From an uncultured Bacteroidales bacterium (GTDB lineage: Bacteria; Bacteroidota; Bacteroidia; Bacteroidales; Muribaculaceae): a stretch of DNA of 64,000 nt. This document shows, one piece after another, positions 43,154 through 53,991 of the stretch (position 1 is the stretch's first letter; each line of letters opens with the position of its first letter). The position numbers and the translations under genes were made by a program. The notes under the pieces are model-generated. The model was not told the origin of the DNA and ran no database searches. It saw nothing but the letters and a program-made list of their open reading frames with translations. Where the stretch lies: the NCBI GenBank assembly GCA_947573135.1, contig CANPDU010000012.1, forward strand, positions 1 through 64,000, in the 5' to 3' direction.

Positions 43154-44287
43154 TTATAATAGTTTAACGCCAATACCCGGACGATCGGGTAGCGCGATTT
43201 TGCCCTCAACGATTTTGACACCGTCAAAGCGATCGTTTGCGATCAGCAGATTGCCGTCGAGATCGGCCCAGTCGGCCAAAGGAGAAAGTTGTGCGGCGGC
43301 TGATATTCCGCATGATGTCTCTGTCATGCAGCCGAGCATCACTTTCATGCCAAGCGCATGAGCAAGTACAGCCATTTTATATGCTTCATGCATACCGGTG
43401 CATTTCATCAGTTTGATATTAATGCCGTCATAAGCCTGCGCGGCACGTCGCACATCAGGCAAGCGCTGCAGAAATTCGTCGGCGATGACAGGCAGCGGCG
43501 AGCGTTCTCTCAGCCACGCAGTCTCGTCATACATCTCTTTGGGCAGAGGCTGTTCGACAAACAGACAGCCCTGTTCGTTGAGCCAGTGGCACATTTCCAG
43601 AGCTTGTTCCTTATCAGTCCAGCCCTGATTGACGTCAACGCATATCGGTGCGTCCGATTTGCGGCGGATAGCCTCGACCAACTCTTTGTCATGGTCAAGA
43701 CCCATTTTTATCTTTATGACTTTGTAAGGCGATGCTTCGTCTATTTTGGCATCAAGCTCATCGGGATCCGCATCGTAGCTTACGGTGAACGATGTGTCAG
43801 GAGTTTTGCGCGGATCGAGTCCCCAGATCTTGTACCATGGCTGACCCATAATTTTCCCCAGCAGATCGTGAAGGGCGATGTCGACCGATGCCTTTGCCGC
43901 GCGGTTGTCGGGCGCAACCGAGTCCATATAGTCATGGATCTCCTCGATCATAAACGGATCGTTGAACTTGCCGAGATCAAGCCGTGACAGAAAAGCTACG
44001 GCCGAGGCAACAGATTCGCCAAGATAGGGCGGCATAGATGCTTCACCATAACCGGTTATCCCGTCGTATTCGATTTTGACCTGAACGTCGGGAGTGGTGG
44101 TGCGCTGGGATTTAGCCAGGTTGAAGGCATGCCGGAGTTTCAGCTCATAAGGTTCGAATGAAAGTTTGAGTTTGCCGGATTTGCCTTTACGGCGTCCGGG
44201 CTTGCCATATGCAGGAAACGACACAGTGGATGCAATGGTCATTGCGGCTCCGAGAGCCCCTGCTTTGAGAAAATTTCTTCTGTCCAT
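43154..44287 (-). CDS. L-Ala-D/L-Glu epimerase, Tat-exported
   Basis: A 377-residue enolase-superfamily dipeptide epimerase with a twin-arginine signal (MDRRNFLKAGALGAAMTIAS). The active site is complete: KIK at K192/K194, metal ligands D218, E245 and D270, and K292 opposite. Tat export implies folding with Mg2+ before export. The adjacent NlpC/P60 endopeptidase supports recycling of murein tripeptides, as in the Bacteroides BT1313/BT1314 pair. Confidence 0.88.
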   Translation of the reverse strand: MDRRNFLKAGALGAAMTIASTVSFPAYGKPGRRKGKSGKLKLSFEPYELKLRHAFNLAKSQRTTTPDVQVKIEYDGITGYGEASMPPYLGESVASAVAFLSRLDLGKFNDPFMIEEIHDYMDSVAPDNRAAKASVDIALHDLLGKIMGQPWYKIWGLDPRKTPDTSFTVSYDADPDELDAKIDEASPYKVIKIKMGLDHDKELVEAIRRKSDAPICVDVNQGWTDKEQALEMCHWLNEQGCLFVEQPLPKEMYDETAWLRERSPLPVIADEFLQRLPDVRRAAQAYDGINIKLMKCTGMHEAYKMAVLAHALGMKVMLGCMTETSCGISAAAQLSPLADWADLDGNLLIANDRFDGVKIVEGKIALPDRPGIGVKLL

Positions 44288-45780: not shown

Positions 45781-47307
45781 ATGGATAAAATCAAAAAAAC
45801 AGTAAAGAAATCAAGACCTTTCAACATTTTGAAAGCGATCCGTCGTGTACTTGCGGTGTCCTCGATCCTGATGGTTACTCTGCTTTTTCTCGATTTTACG
45901 GGACTTGCCTCCCGATGGTTCGGATGGATGGTCAGGATACAGTTCCTGCCGGCAGTACTTGCTCTTAATGTGGGTGTTATAATTGCCCTTGTTGCTCTCA
46001 CCCTGATTTTCGGGCGCATCTATTGCTCGGTAATCTGTCCTCTTGGTATCATGCAGGATATCTTCGCATGGTTCGGACTCCGGCAGAAGAAAAACCGTTA
46101 TTCTTATTCTCCGGCCAAAAATATTCTGCGCTATACGTTTTTGGCTCTGATGGTTGTTGCCGTTATAGCCGGGATAAGCGTTATTGTCACACTTCTGGCG
46201 CCTTATAGTGCCTATGGCCGCATAGTCCAGAGCATTTTGTCTCCAGTATGGCAGTGGGGCAATAACCTTTTGGCGCACTGGGCTGAGACACGCGGAAGTT
46301 ATATGTTCTATTCCGTCGACATCTGGTTGCGGAGCGGTCTGACTCTCTGCGTGGCAGTCGTTACTCTTGCCGTCCTTGCTTTCCTTTCATGGCGTAACGG
46401 TCGCACATATTGCAATACCGTATGCCCTGTAGGAACAGTGCTCGGTTTCCTTGCTCGTTTCTCATTTCTAAAACCGGTCATCGACACCTCGAAGTGTAAT
46501 TCCTGTGGACTATGTGCGCGCAATTGCAAGGCTGCATGTATCGACAATAAAAATCACAAGATCGATTACTCACGTTGTGTAGCCTGTATGGACTGTATCA
46601 GCAATTGCCACCAGGGGGCCATTTCCTATGGCCGTCCCCAAAAAGTCAGCCGGCCGGAATCTGAAACTGAAAATGCTGGAGCTTCACGCCGTCAGTTCCT
46701 CTCAGTCGCTGCTGTGGCCGTTACTACTGCCGTCGCAAAGGCTCAGGAAAAGACTGTCGACGGCGGACTTGCCGTAATCGAAGACAAAGTCAGACCTCAG
46801 CGCAAGACTCGCATCGTCCCCCCGGGAGCGCAGAGCCTGAAGAATATGTCCGACCATTGCACCGCCTGTCAGTTGTGTGTGGTATCCTGCCCTAATGAAG
46901 TGCTCCGTCCTTCCGGCGACATTATGACTTTCATGCAGCCGGAATCGTCTTATGAACGCGGATATTGCCGTCCGGAGTGTACGCGTTGCTCTGATGTCTG
47001 TCCGTCGGGTGCTATCCTGCCTATAACCGTTGCCGAAAAATCTTCGATACAGATCGGCCATGCGGTGTGGATCAAAGACAATTGCATTCCGTTGACCGAC
47101 GGTGTTCCGTGCGGCAATTGCGCGCGGCATTGTCCCGTCGGTGCGATAACCATGATCCCGTCCGTGCCGGGTGATGAAAACTCGCTTAAAATCCCCATGG
47201 TCGACACCGAGCGCTGCATCGGATGTGGCGCGTGTGAGAATCTTTGTCCGGCGCGTCCGTTCTCGGCTATATATGTAGAGGGCAACCAACGTCACCGCAT
47301 TGTTTAA
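45781..47307 (+). CDS. NapH-NapG-like fusion, membrane ferredoxin quinol dehydrogenase
   Basis: A 508-residue protein in two parts. Residues 1-290 form a NapH/NosR-like domain: five or so helices, paired CxxxCP motifs (C82/C86 and C211/C215) and two 4Fe-4S clusters (C239, C242, C245, C249 and C266, C269, C272, C276). An internal Tat-like signal SRRQFLSVAAVAV (302-314) then starts a NapG/MauM-like periplasmic domain with four more cysteine clusters (around 360-370, 396-407, 435-451 and 479-489). It should pass electrons from menaquinol to periplasmic partners. First gene of the six-gene cluster. Confidence 0.85.
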   Translation: MDKIKKTVKKSRPFNILKAIRRVLAVSSILMVTLLFLDFTGLASRWFGWMVRIQFLPAVLALNVGVIIALVALTLIFGRIYCSVICPLGIMQDIFAWFGLRQKKNRYSYSPAKNILRYTFLALMVVAVIAGISVIVTLLAPYSAYGRIVQSILSPVWQWGNNLLAHWAETRGSYMFYSVDIWLRSGLTLCVAVVTLAVLAFLSWRNGRTYCNTVCPVGTVLGFLARFSFLKPVIDTSKCNSCGLCARNCKAACIDNKNHKIDYSRCVACMDCISNCHQGAISYGRPQKVSRPESETENAGASRRQFLSVAAVAVTTAVAKAQEKTVDGGLAVIEDKVRPQRKTRIVPPGAQSLKNMSDHCTACQLCVVSCPNEVLRPSGDIMTFMQPESSYERGYCRPECTRCSDVCPSGAILPITVAEKSSIQIGHAVWIKDNCIPLTDGVPCGNCARHCPVGAITMIPSVPGDENSLKIPMVDTERCIGCGACENLCPARPFSAIYVEGNQRHRIV

Positions 47308-47326
47308 TCTCCTTCAATTTACTGGA

Positions 47327-48739
47327 ATGACTAAAAAAAATATAGACAGACGCGATTTTCTTAAGCGTTTGGGGCTTGGAACCGCAGTAACCGGTATCAC
47401 TTTAGCCGGATGTAAGTCAGAAGCTGAGAAAGTTGTATCGGCACAGTCTTCGTTGCCGTCATCTGAAGTTTCGGCCGAAGATATGACATATAGAGTAAAT
47501 CCGAAAACCGGAGAAAAAGTTTCGTTGCTCGGCTACGGTTGTATGCGCTGGCCTATGATGAAGAACCCCGAGGGCGACGGTGAGATTGTCGATCAGGATG
47601 CTGTCAACGATCTTGTAGACTACGCCATTGCTCATGGCGTCAACTACTTTGATACAGCGCCGCCTTATGTTCGCGGCCTTTCCGAAGAGGCTACCGGCAT
47701 TGCCCTGAGCCGACATCCGCGCGACAGCTATTTCCTTGCCACCAAGATGTCTAATCATCACCTCGCGCGCACTGGGCTGAAAGGCCGTGAGCTCTTTGAT
47801 GCTTCGGTCGCGATGTATCGCAATTCTTTCGAGAAGCTCCGCACTGATTATTTTGATTATTACTTGCTTCATAATATTGGCGGAGAGACCGGATTGCCTT
47901 TTCTGATGCAGCGTTTCTTTGATAGCGGACTTCTTGATTTCTTACTCGAGGAGCGCGAGGCCGGACGCATTCGCAATCTCGGCTTTTCTTATCATGGTGA
48001 CGTGAAGGTATTTGATTACATGCTGTCGCTTCATGATGAGGTTCACTGGGATTTTGTACAGATTCAGCTTAATTATGTCGACTATCGCCACGCGTCGGGC
48101 ATGAATTTCAATGCGGAGTATCTCTATGACGAACTGGCCAAACGCGGCATTCCTGCTGTCATTATGGAACCTCTTCTCGGGGGACGACTCGCCTCTCTGT
48201 CTGACCACCTCAATTCCCGTCTGAAACAGCGTGAACCCGAAAACAGCATTGCTTCCTGGGCATTCCGTTTTGCGGGTTCATTCCCTGGTGTGCTCACTGT
48301 TCTTAGCGGAATGACTTATATTGAGCATCTTCAGGACAATTTGCGTACTTATGCGCCGCTGAAACCTCTGAATGATTCGGAACTTGCGTTGCTTGAGGAC
48401 ACTGCTGTCGAAATGATCAGCTATCCTTCAGTTCCTTGCACCGCATGTGAATATTGTATGCCTTGTCCATACGGTATTAATATTCCGGCCATATTCTCAC
48501 ATTATAATAAATGTGTCAACGAGGGCAATATTCCGTCTTCATCTCAGAGTGAGGGTTATCGTGAGGCGCGGCGTGCGTTTCTTGTCGGCTATGACCGCTC
48601 GGTCCCCAAGCTCCGGCAGGCAAGCCACTGCATCGGCTGCAACCAGTGCGCGCCGCATTGTCCCCAGTCCATCAGGATTCCAGACGAGCTTCACCGCATC
48701 GACGAATATGTCGAAAAACTGAAACAGGAGACCCTCTGA
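47327..48739 (+). CDS. Tat-exported aldo/keto reductase with ferredoxin motifs
   Basis: A 470-residue protein from the ATG at 47327. It has a twin-arginine signal DRRDFLKRLGLGTA ending in a lipobox-like LAGC (C29). The AKR barrel follows: LGYGCMRWP, YFDTAPPYV with the catalytic tyrosine region, YYLLHNIGG and IMEPLLGG. C-terminal cysteine groups CTACEYCMPCPYGI and CIGCNQCAPHCP bind 4Fe-4S clusters. Cytoplasmic homologs with Fe-S tails exist, but the Tat signal puts this one outside the inner membrane, where electrons could come from the NapGH-like protein rather than NADPH (inference). Confidence 0.85.
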   Translation: MTKKNIDRRDFLKRLGLGTAVTGITLAGCKSEAEKVVSAQSSLPSSEVSAEDMTYRVNPKTGEKVSLLGYGCMRWPMMKNPEGDGEIVDQDAVNDLVDYAIAHGVNYFDTAPPYVRGLSEEATGIALSRHPRDSYFLATKMSNHHLARTGLKGRELFDASVAMYRNSFEKLRTDYFDYYLLHNIGGETGLPFLMQRFFDSGLLDFLLEEREAGRIRNLGFSYHGDVKVFDYMLSLHDEVHWDFVQIQLNYVDYRHASGMNFNAEYLYDELAKRGIPAVIMEPLLGGRLASLSDHLNSRLKQREPENSIASWAFRFAGSFPGVLTVLSGMTYIEHLQDNLRTYAPLKPLNDSELALLEDTAVEMISYPSVPCTACEYCMPCPYGINIPAIFSHYNKCVNEGNIPSSSQSEGYREARRAFLVGYDRSVPKLRQASHCIGCNQCAPHCPQSIRIPDELHRIDEYVEKLKQETL

Positions 48740-48752
48740 TATACAGGTAGCT

Positions 48753-49178
48753 ATGACACTCGACGATCTGAAAGACATACTCCGGCGCGAAAAGTGCTCA
48801 TGTGTGATTTCCGACGGCCGCGGCGTGACTTTGTGTCATCAGCGCGGAGTGAAAGACCTGTTTCACATTCTGAAATCATCACCGGGACTTCTGTCCGGCG
48901 CTTTGATCGCCGATAAAATTGTAGGCAAGGGCGCGGCGGCTTTAATGATACTTGGCGGAGTTTCGGAGGTTTATGCCGAAGTTGTCAGCCGTCCGGCTCT
49001 TGATCTTTTGACAGCGGAGGGTATTGCAGTGCAATATGATGTCTGTGTGCCTGCTATAATCAACCGCGCCGGCACAGGAATTTGCCCTGTCGAGACTCTC
49101 TGCCGCGACTGTCTTACCGCCCGCGACTGCCTCCCATTGATTGAAAATTTTATTAACCAATTAAATACAGAAAAATGA
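48753..49178 (+). CDS. DUF1893 protein (TM1506-like)
   Basis: A 141-residue cytoplasmic protein of the DUF1893 family, whose structure (TM1506) has a cytidine-deaminase-like fold. The conserved core LLSGALIADKIVGKGAAALMILGGVSEVYAEVVS is present. A C-terminal extension contains four cysteines (ICPVETLCRDCLTARDC), possibly a metal site. It overlaps the DUF362 gene by 4 nt. It has no signal peptide, unlike its neighbours, and its role is unknown. Confidence 0.8.
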   Translation: MTLDDLKDILRREKCSCVISDGRGVTLCHQRGVKDLFHILKSSPGLLSGALIADKIVGKGAAALMILGGVSEVYAEVVSRPALDLLTAEGIAVQYDVCVPAIINRAGTGICPVETLCRDCLTARDCLPLIENFINQLNTEK

Positions 49179-50164
49179 ATAAAACACTTGTTGCCGTATT
49201 GGCTGCTGCTCTTGCTCTTACAGGCTGTGCCAAAGGCAAAAATGCTGAAAATGCTGCTATGGACAATAATTCGGAACAGAAAGCCGACACGTCGGTCGTC
49301 TATATGACACGGGAAATCTCGCCCGAAGCCATAATCAAACTTTATAAAGCCCTCGGACGCGAGGCTAAAGGTAACGTCGCTATCAAGATCTCTACCGGCG
49401 AACCTGGCGGACATAACTTCCTTCAGCCTGCGCTGATCACTGATTTTGTCAAACTGACAAACGGCACTATCGTAGAGTGCAACACTGCTTATCAGGGCAA
49501 ACGCTTCACCACTGAGGATCATCGCCGTGCGGCTGAAGAACACGGTTTTACCGCCATTGCTCCCGTCGATATAATGGATGCCGAGGGCGAAGTTAAACTT
49601 CCGCTCGAAGGAGGCGAACATCTTGAGTACGACATCGTCGGCTCACACTATCCCGACTATGATTTCACCGTCATCCTTTCTCATTTCAAGGGCCATGCGA
49701 TGGGCGGTTTCGGCGGGGCTGTCAAGAACATGTCTATCGGCATCGCTTCTTCCAACGGCAAAAGCTATATCCACTCCGGCGGAAAGATCGCCACTCCCGA
49801 CAGCCTCTGGACCAATCTGGCCGATCAGGATATTTTCCTCGAATCTATGGCTGAGGCTGCCAAAGCCGTTGCCGATCACTGCGGCGACAGCATTTTGTAT
49901 ATAAGCGTTGCCAATAATCTTTCTGTCGACTGTGACTGCGATGCTTCTCCTGAAGATCCTCAGATGCATGATATCGGCATTCTCGCTTCTCTCGACCCCG
50001 TAGCCCTTGACAAGGCTTGTACGGATCTCGTCCGTAATTCAGACGATCCCGGCAAGGTTCATCTTATTGAACGCATTGATTCCCGTCATGGTATGCATAC
50101 TCTTGAGCACGCCGAAAAGATCGGACTCGGTTCACAGACCTATAAACTTGTGACTCTCGACTGA
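49175..50164 (+). CDS. DUF362 lipoprotein
   Basis: A 329-residue predicted lipoprotein (lipobox LALTGC, C18). The DUF362 domain covers most of the chain (GNVAIKISTGEPGGHNFLQPALITDFV, then LSHFKGHAMGGFGGAVKNMSIG and GILASLDPVALDKACTDLV). DUF362 proteins often carry a ferredoxin tail, but here there is none: it ends in SQTYKLVTLD. It probably sits in the periplasm next to the exported reductase and shares one base with the receptor gene that follows. Confidence 0.87.
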   Translation: MNKTLVAVLAAALALTGCAKGKNAENAAMDNNSEQKADTSVVYMTREISPEAIIKLYKALGREAKGNVAIKISTGEPGGHNFLQPALITDFVKLTNGTIVECNTAYQGKRFTTEDHRRAAEEHGFTAIAPVDIMDAEGEVKLPLEGGEHLEYDIVGSHYPDYDFTVILSHFKGHAMGGFGGAVKNMSIGIASSNGKSYIHSGGKIATPDSLWTNLADQDIFLESMAEAAKAVADHCGDSILYISVANNLSVDCDCDASPEDPQMHDIGILASLDPVALDKACTDLVRNSDDPGKVHLIERIDSRHGMHTLEHAEKIGLGSQTYKLVTLD

Positions 50165-52023
50165 TGAATAAGTGCGCCTCCTGCATATTGCTTTGTTTGC
50201 CTGTGTCTGCTGCGGCTTTTGCTCAGACCTACGTGGATTCGACCGGTGTCCGTCATCTCGGTGAAGTCGTTGTGACCGGCACGAATGATGCATTGAGCCG
50301 CAACTTGATGCCGTACACCGTTTCCGACATCAGCGAGAAACAGCTTGAGGCTACCGGCAGCACTCAGTTGCTAAGTGCTGTTTCGGGCCTCGTTCCAAGT
50401 CTGTTTGTCACCGAGCGTAATATATTCGGTTTTGGCGTTTCAAACGGAGGTTCGGGAGGTGTTAAAATCCGTGGAGTAGGGGGATCGCCGACCAATGCCG
50501 TTCTTATGATGGTCGACGGGCAGCCGCAGTTCGCCGGAATTTATTCCCATAGCATAGCCGATTTCTATCAGACCGAATATGTCGACCATGTGGAGGTGCT
50601 TCGCGGACCGGCGTCGGTTCTGTATGGTTCCAATGCCATGGGCGGCGTGATTAATGTTATCACGAAAAATGCTGTTGCCGACGGTGTACGCACAACTCTT
50701 ACCTCGCGCTACGGTTCTTACAACACGTGGCTGTCTTCACTCACCAATATGACCCGCTTCGGGCGTTTCTCTTCGCTCGTCTCTATCGGCTACGACCGCA
50801 CGGACGGTGTTCAGAAAAATTTTGACTTCCGTCAGAGCAATGTCTATGCTAAGGTTGGCTATGATTTCAGCGATCGCTGGAAAGCCGCTGCCGATTATAC
50901 GCTGTTGGAGTTTGTAGGCAATGATCCGGTCTATCCTACTTTGTCAGATCCTGAGTCGACCGATATTTATCATCAGAATGTGATCCGTGGAGAAGCTGCC
51001 GTGACAGTTACCGATACATATGATAATACCAACGGAACTGTCCGCGTTTACTATAACTACGGCAATCATTTTGTCGATGATCCGCGTCATTTCCACAGTC
51101 TCGATGACCGTTTCGGCGTTCTGGCATATCAGAATTTCAGATTGTGGTCAGGCTCTAATGCTACATTAGGTTTTGATTTCGACCGCTATACCGGTAAAAT
51201 ACCCGTTTCCGGCGGCCGCGATCACGTCGAAGGTTCGCTCACGACAATGGAGCGTAAGGATATAACCGAATATTCGCCTTATCTGACTTTGTCACAGAAT
51301 TTATTGGGTGATCGGCTGATACTTAACGCCGGACTCCGTATGGCCAACAGTGACATGTTCGATTCGCAGTGGATACCTCAGGCCGGTATCGTGCTTCATC
51401 CTTTCGACGGCTGGAACTTCAAGGCTTCCCTTGCCAAGGGTTATCGCAACCCTTCGTTCCGTGAGCTCTATCTCTACCGAATGGCTAATGATGCCCTCAA
51501 GCCTGAAAATATGATGAATTATGAAGTTTCTGTCGGCCGGCACTTCTCACATTGGTTTGAAGCTGATATCACTGCATTTTTCAGCCAAGGATCAGACATG
51601 ATCCAGACTGTCGATATGAAGAATGTCAATACCGGCAGTTTCATCAACAAAGGCCTCGAGTTTTCGGCACGCAGTCATCCGCTTGACTGCCTGCAGCTTT
51701 GGGCGACCTACAGCTATCTACACTCTTCGGTCCGTAATCTTACGGCCGCACCTCGGAACATGTATTATCTCGGCATAGGCTGGGATGCGTTCAGAAATTT
51801 TCATGCCGATTTCCAGCTCAAGGGTGTCGGTGGTTTGTATGTGTCTGACGACATGCCCCGTCAGTCCTATGCCGTCGCCAATGTTAGACTGTCATATCAG
51901 CTCATTTCTATGCTTCAGCTTTTTGCTGATCTTGACAACATCACTGACACCGATTATGTCATCAACCGCGGCTATCGTATGCCCGGTTTTAATGCAATGG
52001 GTGGCTTTAAATTCAAATTTTGA
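50164..52023 (+). CDS. TonB-dependent receptor
   Basis: A 619-residue outer-membrane receptor with signal peptide. The plug domain (about 30-150) contains GEVVVTGTND, a VMMVDGQPQFAG stretch and EVLRGPASVLYGSNAMGGVINVIT. The barrel ends NAMGGFKFKF. Its size is close to BtuB and heme/siderophore-type receptors rather than SusC (about 1000 residues), and no SusD partner is present. The ligand is unknown. The neighbouring redox genes suggest a metal complex or redox-active cofactor (inference). Confidence 0.88.
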   Translation: MNKCASCILLCLPVSAAAFAQTYVDSTGVRHLGEVVVTGTNDALSRNLMPYTVSDISEKQLEATGSTQLLSAVSGLVPSLFVTERNIFGFGVSNGGSGGVKIRGVGGSPTNAVLMMVDGQPQFAGIYSHSIADFYQTEYVDHVEVLRGPASVLYGSNAMGGVINVITKNAVADGVRTTLTSRYGSYNTWLSSLTNMTRFGRFSSLVSIGYDRTDGVQKNFDFRQSNVYAKVGYDFSDRWKAAADYTLLEFVGNDPVYPTLSDPESTDIYHQNVIRGEAAVTVTDTYDNTNGTVRVYYNYGNHFVDDPRHFHSLDDRFGVLAYQNFRLWSGSNATLGFDFDRYTGKIPVSGGRDHVEGSLTTMERKDITEYSPYLTLSQNLLGDRLILNAGLRMANSDMFDSQWIPQAGIVLHPFDGWNFKASLAKGYRNPSFRELYLYRMANDALKPENMMNYEVSVGRHFSHWFEADITAFFSQGSDMIQTVDMKNVNTGSFINKGLEFSARSHPLDCLQLWATYSYLHSSVRNLTAAPRNMYYLGIGWDAFRNFHADFQLKGVGGLYVSDDMPRQSYAVANVRLSYQLISMLQLFADLDNITDTDYVINRGYRMPGFNAMGGFKFKF

Positions 52024-52040
52024 TCTTTAATTATTCGATT

Positions 52041-52559
52041 ATGCAGACTTCAGTTAGTTTACAATCTCTTCCGTTCAGTAGCGCAAAGACTTATTTTGCG
52101 GCTACGCTCTTCATAGTGGCCAATATTGCTGTTCCGCAACTTTTCCATCTTGTGCCTCAGGGCGGAGCGACCTGGCTCCCGATCTATTTTTTCACTCTGA
52201 TAGGGGCATATAAATTCGGATGGCGTGTCGGCCTGCTGACTGCTATGTTCTCGCCGTTGATCAACTCTCTGCTTTTTGCCATGCCGGCAGCCGCTGCGCT
52301 TCCTGCCATCACTTTGAAATCTGTCCTGCTCGCGGTGATATCCGCTTATGCAGCCGCACGTTTCAGAAAAGCCGACCTGATTTTGCTTGTTGCCGTTGTT
52401 CTTGCTTATCAGATCTTTGGCACACTTGGCGAATGGGCACTCAATGGCGACTTTATCCTTGCCTGTCAGGACTTCCGCTTAGGCATCCCCGGAATGCTTC
52501 TTCAGATTTTCGGTGCCTGGTTTATCCTTCGCTTGAAATTCGACCGTCCAGTTTTTTGA
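52041..52559 (+). CDS. ECF transporter S-component-like membrane protein
   Basis: A 172-residue membrane protein from the ATG at 52041, with five to six helices. The layout (FAATLFIVANIAVPQLFHLVP, then LPIYFFTLIGAYKFGWRVGLLTAMFSPLINSLLFAMP) resembles substrate-binding S components of energy-coupling-factor transporters. No EcfA/EcfT genes are nearby, which is normal for group II systems. It follows the receptor closely and would carry the same ligand across the inner membrane. Last gene of the cluster; an IS element follows. Confidence 0.75.
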   Translation: MQTSVSLQSLPFSSAKTYFAATLFIVANIAVPQLFHLVPQGGATWLPIYFFTLIGAYKFGWRVGLLTAMFSPLINSLLFAMPAAAALPAITLKSVLLAVISAYAAARFRKADLILLVAVVLAYQIFGTLGEWALNGDFILACQDFRLGIPGMLLQIFGAWFILRLKFDRPVF

Positions 52560-52566
52560 TATGAAA

Positions 52567-53991
52567 TTATTACTGTCCGCTAAACGATAGATCAGTGAGT
52601 CCAACTTTTTGAAAAGCAGAAGTTGGGCTTACTTTTGATGTATGACAAGCCCCTTTCAGTCAATTTCATGCTCCAAAGGAGGAGATTCGGAGGCCTCGGC
52701 GAGCATTATATTCAGGTCCGCATCGGGTTGGTTGAGGAACTTTTCGAGATTCAGGTAATACATCAGCACAATCCGTATTATTGTAGCCAGCCCGGAGAAG
52801 CTCCATCGCCTTTTTAGTTTGCTTTGCAAGACTGAAAGCAACAGGTTTGCGATGAGAGTGACCCATATCTGGATTTTGATGGCATTGGCGCTTTCGCCAT
52901 AGAAGTATCTCAGGGGGAAGTTCTGCTTGATCTGCTTGAAAAGAGACTCTATCTGCCACCGGCGGCGGTATATCGCCACGATGGTCTCCAACGCCATGTC
53001 AAAATCGTTGGTAAGCAATGATATGAGCTTGGGTTGCTTGCCCTTTTTGATGTCAACATACGTGATTATCCTGGCAATATGGTTTATCTCGCCCTTGCGG
53101 AACACCACAACCTGCTCCCGATATTCCATAACTCCCTGCGGATTCTGATGCATACAGTCCACAAGCACCTCATAATTGAGGTTTTTCTTCATCTTGGTGA
53201 CATAGACCACTCCACGGTCAGTCAGCTCCTCGAACTTGGCATAGTTGATGTAGGCGCGGTCCATCGCCGCTATCTCGTCGCGTTTGTAATGGCTCGGTGC
53301 GAGCATGAACGAGTCGTTGGTCGCCGCAGACGTGAACTGCACATCGCACGGAACACCCTCGTTGGCATGTATCACAGCATGGACTTTGACGCCGCCTTTC
53401 TTCCTGCCTGTCTTCGGATGACGCCCCACGCCCTTGAAAATGGCATTGGAGAACAGGCTTACGGTGGTTGAATCGATGATACGCAGCCGTTTTATCCATT
53501 CTTCCGTGCCGCCCCGTCGGCTGTCCGATGAAAGGATGTCCTTATTTGCTTCATAGAGATCGCGGTACACATCCTCGAAGAACCGCTCCGGACGTCTTGC
53601 GTTTGCATCTGACAGCGTGCTCCGCTTCGGTACCGTGTCAATGCCCACATGATGCAGCTTGCGCACTTCAGCTGTCATGGATGGCTCTATTTCTCGCAAT
53701 GAATCGAACCGCTGAATCACCGCATAAAGCATTGTCAGCAGATGTGTGTATCCGTCGAAGCTCTTGACATACTTTTCTCCGCCGTGTTTACGGCTCATTT
53801 CAACTATTTTTGTGCGGTCAAGCGATTTTATCAGCTGACCATATATCGGCTGTCCGAAGAAATTGCTACTTTTGCCCATGGTTATTCTTAGTTTGTTTGG
53901 CGACAACAAAATAACCATTTAGGGCTGACTCCTGCAAACGGAATCAGCCCTAATTTTCAGTTGACCTCAAAAGTTTAGCGGACAGTAATAA
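52567..53991 (-). mobile_element. IS4-family insertion sequence, complete
   Basis: A 1425-bp element bounded by perfect 19-bp inverted repeats (52567-52585 and 53973-53991, TTATTACTGTCCGCTAAAC and its complement), with one transposase gene. The ends are intact and the reading frame unbroken, so it may be active. No clear target-site duplication was found; the outermost bases may include AT-rich target sequence. It inserted just after the redox cluster. Confidence 0.88.
52656..53879 (-). CDS. IS4-family transposase (DUF4372 type)
   Basis: A 407-residue transposase from the ATG at 53879. The N-terminus (FFGQPIYGQLIKSLDRTKI, YVKSFDGYTHLLTMLYAVI) matches the DUF4372 domain. Catalytic parts of the DDE domain follow: RIIDSTTVSLF (first Asp), AAMDRAYINY (second Asp) and YRRRWQIESLFKQIKQNF, the YREK-type block with the glutamate. 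The longer upstream open frame to 53918 has a less family-like N-terminus. Confidence 0.9.
   Translation of the reverse strand: MGKSSNFFGQPIYGQLIKSLDRTKIVEMSRKHGGEKYVKSFDGYTHLLTMLYAVIQRFDSLREIEPSMTAEVRKLHHVGIDTVPKRSTLSDANARRPERFFEDVYRDLYEANKDILSSDSRRGGTEEWIKRLRIIDSTTVSLFSNAIFKGVGRHPKTGRKKGGVKVHAVIHANEGVPCDVQFTSAATNDSFMLAPSHYKRDEIAAMDRAYINYAKFEELTDRGVVYVTKMKKNLNYEVLVDCMHQNPQGVMEYREQVVVFRKGEINHIARIITYVDIKKGKQPKLISLLTNDFDMALETIVAIYRRRWQIESLFKQIKQNFPLRYFYGESANAIKIQIWVTLIANLLLSVLQSKLKRRWSFSGLATIIRIVLMYYLNLEKFLNQPDADLNIMLAEASESPPLEHEID

Follow-up and report, generated by a model that had tools for sequence, protein, structure and literature searches.

The NapG and NapH proteins of periplasmic nitrate reductase represent a type, here called NapGH, that is established as drawing electrons from menaquinol. 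LarA, the lactate racemase that carries the nickel-pincer nucleotide (NPN), is in the same Pfam clan, CL0471, as the DUF362 family (PMC11770544). According to another report, larB, larE and larC are present and larA is absent in about 15% of the analysed genomes, which leaves the NPN-using protein unidentified there (PMC11796402). In a review citing Iyer et al. 2011, the TM1506 superfamily is described as bacterial ADP-ribosylating enzymes; ADP-ribosylation is reported for a Thermotoga protein, and the DUF1893 family is given a deaminase-like fold (PMC8946771). Here we describe six genes at 45781–52559 of a window of 64,000 nucleotides, this being the whole stretch of DNA analysed (positions 1 to 64,000 of contig CANPDU010000012.1, assembly GCA_947573135.1), from an uncultured Bacteroidales bacterium of the Muribaculaceae. 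The cluster is read as a quinol-fed envelope redox system together with uptake of a nucleobase-like ligand, of which a pyridine-type cofactor or its base is the likeliest; the probability given to this reading is roughly 0.36. A stronger result adjoins it: as judged from predicted structures, DUF362 is a LarA-fold family linked with NapGH.

The six open reading frames (ORFs) are nearly gapless and co-directional, the intergenic distances along the run being 19, 13, −4, −1, and 17 bases:

45781–47307, plus strand: NapH-NapG-like fusion, a membrane NapH half followed by a polyferredoxin half (Fer4 and Fer4_5 domains)
47327–48739, plus strand: aldo/keto reductase (AKR) exported by the twin-arginine translocation (Tat) pathway, with two C-terminal four-Cys motifs (PF00248, Fer4_9, TAT_signal)
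48753–49178, plus strand: DUF1893/TM1506-family protein (PF08973; PDB relatives 1vk9 and 9e9a)
49175–50164, plus strand: DUF362 lipoprotein without a ferredoxin tail, with a predicted LarA-like fold and counterparts of H174, K184 and H200 (domain and predicted fold)
50164–52023, plus strand: TonB-dependent receptor similar to BtuB and to receptors for siderophores or heme (plug and barrel domains)
52041–52559, plus strand: membrane protein resembling the S component of energy-coupling factor (ECF) transporters (start codon ATG, with a TTG at 52020 as an open alternative)

The original prediction, made from the sequence alone, of six packed and partly overlapping genes on one strand agrees with this layout. 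Its six gene labels are backed by domain-profile searches with cut-offs (Pfam and NCBIfam) and by predicted folds, the matches to NapH, NapG and ECF_trnsprt being below the cut-offs.

The predicted fold of the window DUF362 protein is LarA-like in the N-terminal part. In the alignment, this protein has putative counterparts of Lys184, which tethers NPN, and of the nickel ligand His200. Together with that of His174, these counterparts are at spacings of 10 and 16 in 25 of the 28 window-type DUF362 proteins and of 10 and 17 in the other three. The register H-x9-K-x15-H was found in 39 of 42 window-type DUF362 proteins and in five of six LarA proteins, compared with 4 of 1384 other ORFs. The curated LarA model gave 18.2 bits with the window protein, below its cut-off of 460. 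For DUF362, to which the original prediction assigned no particular role, the LarA-like fold and the pincer residues point to supply of a cofactor for an exported redox enzyme, not to reduction of a ligand. By eye, the N-terminus (ALTGC) is a lipoprotein-type signal, with no Tat signal; because of this, a cofactor would have to reach the protein in the envelope, and the neighbouring TonB receptor would be the obvious route. DUF362 domains were also seen in phage contigs of IMG/VR (L212:3609-7352, also L213; L214:5001-5861; L215:1-948). In L212 the domain comes after a GNAT acetyltransferase domain within an ORF of 1247 aa; that in L215, lipoprotein-like and at the end of its contig, may derive from a host.

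A second type of DUF362, with a Tat signal, gives the link to NPN synthesis. Two genome sets were used, 149 genomes of the same family and 247 genomes of the order. In the latter set, DUF362 (PF04015) was matched in 130 genomes and Tat-DUF362, defined by an E-value of 4.4e-60 or better, in 77 (of 81 with a hit); of 34 proteins of the Tat type, 32 have a twin Arg close to the start. LarC was found in 30 of the 247 genomes, and Tat-DUF362 is present in 20 of these 30, compared with 57 of the 217 others (odds ratio 5.6, p = 3e-5, kinship ignored). By the coordinates of the hits, larC was within 400 bp of Tat-DUF362 in nine genomes from seven families (G154, G162, G259, G265, G278, G295, G299, G300, and G358); in G189 the distance was 5.3 kb. 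LarC loci were fetched from 20 of the 30 genomes. In six of the nine, both gene clusters that are LarE and LarB in L220 come after larC. The H174, K184, and H200 columns are identical in Tat-type DUF362 with and without LarC. A NapGH homologue directly follows Tat-DUF362 in all 20 loci fetched from LarC-less genomes, namely 19 of the 50 with neither LarC nor the S component, plus G255, in which the S component is present. Among 14 control genomes, DUF362 was found in five, four of them with LarC, and nine were without DUF362, two of these with LarC. The control Synechococcus elongatus has DUF362 and LarC without a match to the LarA model, which is a weak point given the insensitivity of that model. 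We read these results as fair evidence for NPN use by at least some members of the DUF362 family.

Turning to the redox pair, the NapH and NapG models align to different halves of the fusion protein. The scores did not reach the cut-offs: 78.6 bits for the NapH/MauN subfamily (cut-off 213), 72.1 bits for the second NapH model (234), and 65.6 bits for NapG (269). The protein matches Fer4_5 and several Fer4 domains, with many 4Fe-4S matches. By eye, CxxxCP motifs are in the membrane NapH half, and an internal RRQFL stretch, which we take to resemble the Tat signal of NapG, precedes the polyferredoxin half. The AKR matches PF00248 with 113.4 bits (cut-off 24) and TAT_signal with 19.2 bits (cut-off 16.7), and a lipobox-like LAGC follows the twin arginine by eye. 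Asp109, Tyr114, Lys140, and His182, the Asp-Tyr-Lys-His tetrad of the AKRs, and the eight Cys of the two four-Cys motifs are invariant across 21 sequences. In 77 of the 80 named AKR loci, all but L130, L145, and L187, a NapGH gene lies on the AKR strand at a distance of at most 4.5 kb. Nearby in these 80 loci were also TatC (21), TatA (18), DUF1893 (18), the S component (12), and a similar TonB receptor (6). For L065, Pfam and NCBIfam matches confirm the identity of tatA and tatC. As read by eye, TatC was matched in the genome of the window and in 38 of 38 genomes with a close AKR (E-value of 3e-166 or better, weaker hits being left out), compared with 168 of 209 others.

Because NapGH adjoins a Tat-exported partner, either AKR or, in a sister module, Tat-DUF362, and tatA-tatC are in some of the same runs, the context supports a model in which NapGH would deliver quinol electrons to exported enzymes and Tat would export the AKR with pre-assembled clusters. 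From the homology with NapGH, electrons would flow from quinol outward. Gene position suggests that AKR and DUF362 might be served by one NapGH, and the envelope enzymes of the cluster may be hydride-type redox enzymes.

Other surroundings of the pair should be mentioned. In Odoribacter lunatus (L124:5646-18180), NapGH-AKR belongs to a longer run of genes that also encodes two flavodoxin proteins, one exported and the other a Tat-signal flavodoxin-ferredoxin, and an iron alcohol dehydrogenase. A second, shorter AKR comes after the Tat AKR in L123:10411-11559, L092:3389-4537, and L094:6320-7480, with a 4Fe-4S domain in that of L123. NapGH-AKR pairs were also seen in contigs titled Desulfovibrio sp. 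An276, Opitutales, Planctomycetaceae, and Candidatus Kapaibacterium (L195, L184, L185, and L170, respectively), which suggests transfer or misbinned contigs.

As for uptake, the TonB receptor matches PF07715 and PF00593 above the cut-offs. Its likeness is to BtuB, PhuR, and catecholate receptors; the BtuB model gave 113.6 bits (cut-off 599.7), and the SusC model was far below its cut-off. The S component scored 23.2 bits with PF12822 (ECF_trnsprt), short of the cut-off of 30.7, and its predicted fold is that of S components. Since EcfT (CbiQ) was found in four of the 28 genomes with this S component, its own genome among the four, it seems to be mostly without the usual motor. DUF1893 is a full-length match to PF08973 (163.4 bits, cut-off 27). 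Of 27 S-component loci, 12 have DUF1893 nearby and six a PF00156 phosphoribosyltransferase, never both. Nearby were also NapGH (16), AKR (12), a similar TonB receptor (12), any DUF362 (8), and TatC (6), the NapGH and receptor counts referring to the same strand within 6.5 kb. DUF1893 and the phosphoribosyltransferase both handle a base-ribose bond, which points to a nucleobase-like compound as the imported ligand and to ribosylation as the way of trapping it. Such trapping fits four sister loci (L077, L080, L082, and L083) in which the S component, phosphoribosyltransferase, Tat-DUF362, and NapGH are together in genomes without LarC.

The cluster is a combination of three modules, NapGH-AKR(-TatAC), DUF1893-S component, and DUF362-TonB receptor, because these pairs recur separately in the loci. 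The neighbourhood maps were made with a simple longest-ORF picker, which sometimes gave antisense ORFs (e.g. in L222, L026, and L060), and BLAST hits were used for the counts where possible. The S component is in 26 of the 247 genomes of the order and a close AKR in 38, with both in 18; the AKR thus accompanies 18 of the 26 S-component genomes, compared with 20 of the 221 others (Fisher p = 3e-11, kinship ignored). DUF362 relatives are in 76 of the 149 same-family genomes. Of 40 same-family loci anchored on DUF362, 18 have a similar TonB receptor at most 250 bp away on the same strand; this DUF362-receptor pair is frequently located apart from the other cluster genes. The complete set of six was seen in the window, L060, L066, and L068 only: L060 is the one case among the 40 DUF362-anchored loci, and L066 and L068 are the two among 60 loci anchored on AKR or the S component, where many intermediates were found. 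Judged by the co-occurrence of homologues, on which the original prediction was made to depend, the outcome is intermediate: the pairs recur, and the six-gene order as a whole does not. Two conserved genes, for an aminotransferase-like protein (F10) and a protein F14, come before DUF362 in several same-family genomes (L029–L032).

The preferred reading, a quinol-fed redox system with uptake of a nucleobase-like ligand, may be put as a series of steps. The NapH half would oxidise menaquinol, and the NapG half would pass the electrons via its 4Fe-4S clusters on the periplasmic side. These electrons would go to the Tat-exported AKR, which has two four-Cys motifs of its own, and probably also to the DUF362 lipoprotein. 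The latter, with its LarA fold and counterparts of the NPN-binding Lys and nickel-ligand His, would be loaded in the envelope, having no Tat signal. The adjoining TonB receptor would carry the ligand into the periplasm, and the S component, for the most part lacking an ECF motor, would move it to the cytosol. There, DUF1893, or the phosphoribosyltransferase in the sister loci, might trap the ligand by attachment of ADP-ribose or ribose-phosphate. These steps start from the order of the genes, the recurring pairs, the predicted folds, the conserved residues, the LarC and LarE negatives, and the rarity of EcfT, all of which are observed; from them we infer the electron direction, the ligand identity, and every reaction.

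Several results weigh against this reading, and those that concern DUF362 bear on the choice of its cofactor. It is quite possible that DUF362 has the LarA fold with another cofactor; the Lys/His site would then bind a different ligand, and the larC-larE-larB adjacency would serve a LarA elsewhere in the genome or reflect shared regulation. The Lys-His spacing is 13 in Tat-DUF362, compared with 16 or 17 in the window type and 16 in five of six LarA proteins, and because of this difference the His200 counterpart of the Tat type rests on alignment. LarC is missing from 57 of the 77 Tat-DUF362 genomes (50 are without both LarC and the S component), so that NPN supply is unexplained there. At least two of the nine genomes with this adjacency, G162 and G278, have LarA-model matches, and larBCE could therefore serve LarA in these. 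All three points favour another cofactor, which is opposed by the nine tight adjacencies in seven families, by the shared H-x9-K-x15-H register, and by G154, where larC is beside Tat-DUF362 without a match to the insensitive LarA model. This model, run on 149 genomes, missed the Corynebacterium glutamicum control, for which a LarA homologue is listed (PMC11770544). Likeness to LarA is itself limited. The Foldseek TM-scores were 0.33–0.48 by query length, and sequence profiles failed to separate the DUF362-LarA pair from a wrong pairing, Tat-DUF362 scoring higher with AKR. Of the catalytic His pair (108 and 174) and the phosphate Arg (Arg75) of LarA, the His174 counterpart is kept in DUF362, the others being without confident alignment.

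A wider proposal, which seems doubtful, is that DUF362 is the missing NPN family of the genomes with larB, larC, and larE and without larA. In Bacteroidales it would be a quinol-linked envelope oxidoreductase fed by NapGH; hosts without larC and larE would scavenge the cofactor or its base by the TonB receptor and the motor-less S component, and would rebuild the nucleotide by the phosphoribosyltransferase or DUF1893. Two of the genes required to make NPN are larC and larE. LarC was matched in none of the 149 same-family genomes, that of the window included, nor in any genome with the S component (26) or a close AKR (38). LarE was above the cut-off in one of 42 genomes, the LarC-bearing control G162, and not in the host of the window, where LarB was not searched.

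The other adverse results concern the cluster as a whole. An AKR ordinarily requires NAD(P)H, and an exported protein is outside the NADPH pool; the switch from one electron, in the Fe-S clusters, to two, in the AKR, is unexplained by the model. DUF362 was found in none of the 80 AKR-anchored named loci, and of the 40 DUF362-anchored loci, 38 were without the S component and 39 without NapGH. Neither DUF1893 nor phosphoribosyltransferase is in nine of the 27 S-component loci. No riboswitch pointing to the ligand was found at the scanned clusters, the sole cobalamin match (L046) being about 7.5 kb from DUF362.

With NapGH-AKR alone, without the other four genes, as the commonest arrangement (17 of the 60 loci anchored on AKR or the S component), the pair might be an independent carbonyl (or quinone) reductase of the periplasm, serving respiration or detoxification, and the transporter, DUF1893, and DUF362 would be loose passengers. 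The pairs in the four contigs of other titles and the company of exported flavodoxins and alcohol dehydrogenase in Odoribacter agree with this. It is nevertheless rather unlikely, since the S component and close AKR co-occur and NapGH is near 16 of the 27 S-component loci. That NapGH-AKR/DUF362 reduces an imported metal complex or cofactor (e.g. a corrinoid or ferric chelate) in the periplasm before or during transport is improbable: the receptor resembles those for such ligands (BtuB, PhuR, and catecholate receptors) and a similar one is near 12 of the 27 S-component loci, but it is near just six of the 80 NapGH-AKR loci, the riboswitch scan gave no support, and the LarA-like fold suggests hydride chemistry over metal reduction. 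Of the original prediction, therefore, electron delivery to periplasmic enzymes and uptake have support in the gene context, as NapGH adjoins a Tat-exported partner and the uptake genes recur, whereas none of the results shows reduction of the ligand before or during transport.

Downstream of the cluster, a transposase (DDE_Tnp_1 with DUF4372, by domain match; 52656–53918, minus strand) lies directly after the S component. It occupies the position where relatives such as L123, L129, and L144 have tatA-tatC. Upstream, beside an NlpC/P60 protein, the minus strand at 43154–44287 encodes an MR_MLE enolase-superfamily protein; its N-terminus is twin-arginine-like, and it may be another Tat substrate close to the cluster.

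The LarA-like predicted fold, the counterparts of the cofactor residues, and the larC neighbour in nine Bacteroidales genomes make the DUF362 question testable despite the distant sequence. If the assignment is true, the reach of nickel-pincer chemistry would widen beyond racemases to an envelope enzyme that is linked to electron transport and widespread in Bacteroidales, and cofactor scavenging between gut bacteria would be implied.

In the open-licence literature, searched with narrow terms, no described pathway with this gene set was found, as had been supposed; comparison is thus with systems that share its parts. Like the NapG/NapH branch of periplasmic nitrate reductase (and MauM/MauN), the fusion has a NapH-type membrane half and a NapG-type polyferredoxin half. 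It differs in that the pair is fused and scores below the curated cut-offs, and in that its conserved partner is AKR or DUF362; the nitrate-reductase partner NapA was not noticed in the neighbourhood maps, no search having been aimed at it. DUF1893 shares with the TM1506 family the full-length Pfam match and the relatives 1vk9 and 9e9a, the ADP-ribosylation being that of the Thermotoga protein. The S component resembles the solitary BioY and BtuM in its fold and in the lack of EcfT in 24 of 28 genomes. It differs from them in having no ligand-specific family match, in the one EcfT-like gene of its own genome, and in its partner, DUF1893 or phosphoribosyltransferase, in 18 of 27 loci. Compared with the LarA superfamily, the host of the window is without a LarC match and without LarE above the cut-off, and DUF362 is an exported lipoprotein or Tat substrate accompanied by NapGH; the N-terminal fold, the His174, Lys184, and His200 counterparts, and the clan are shared with LarA.

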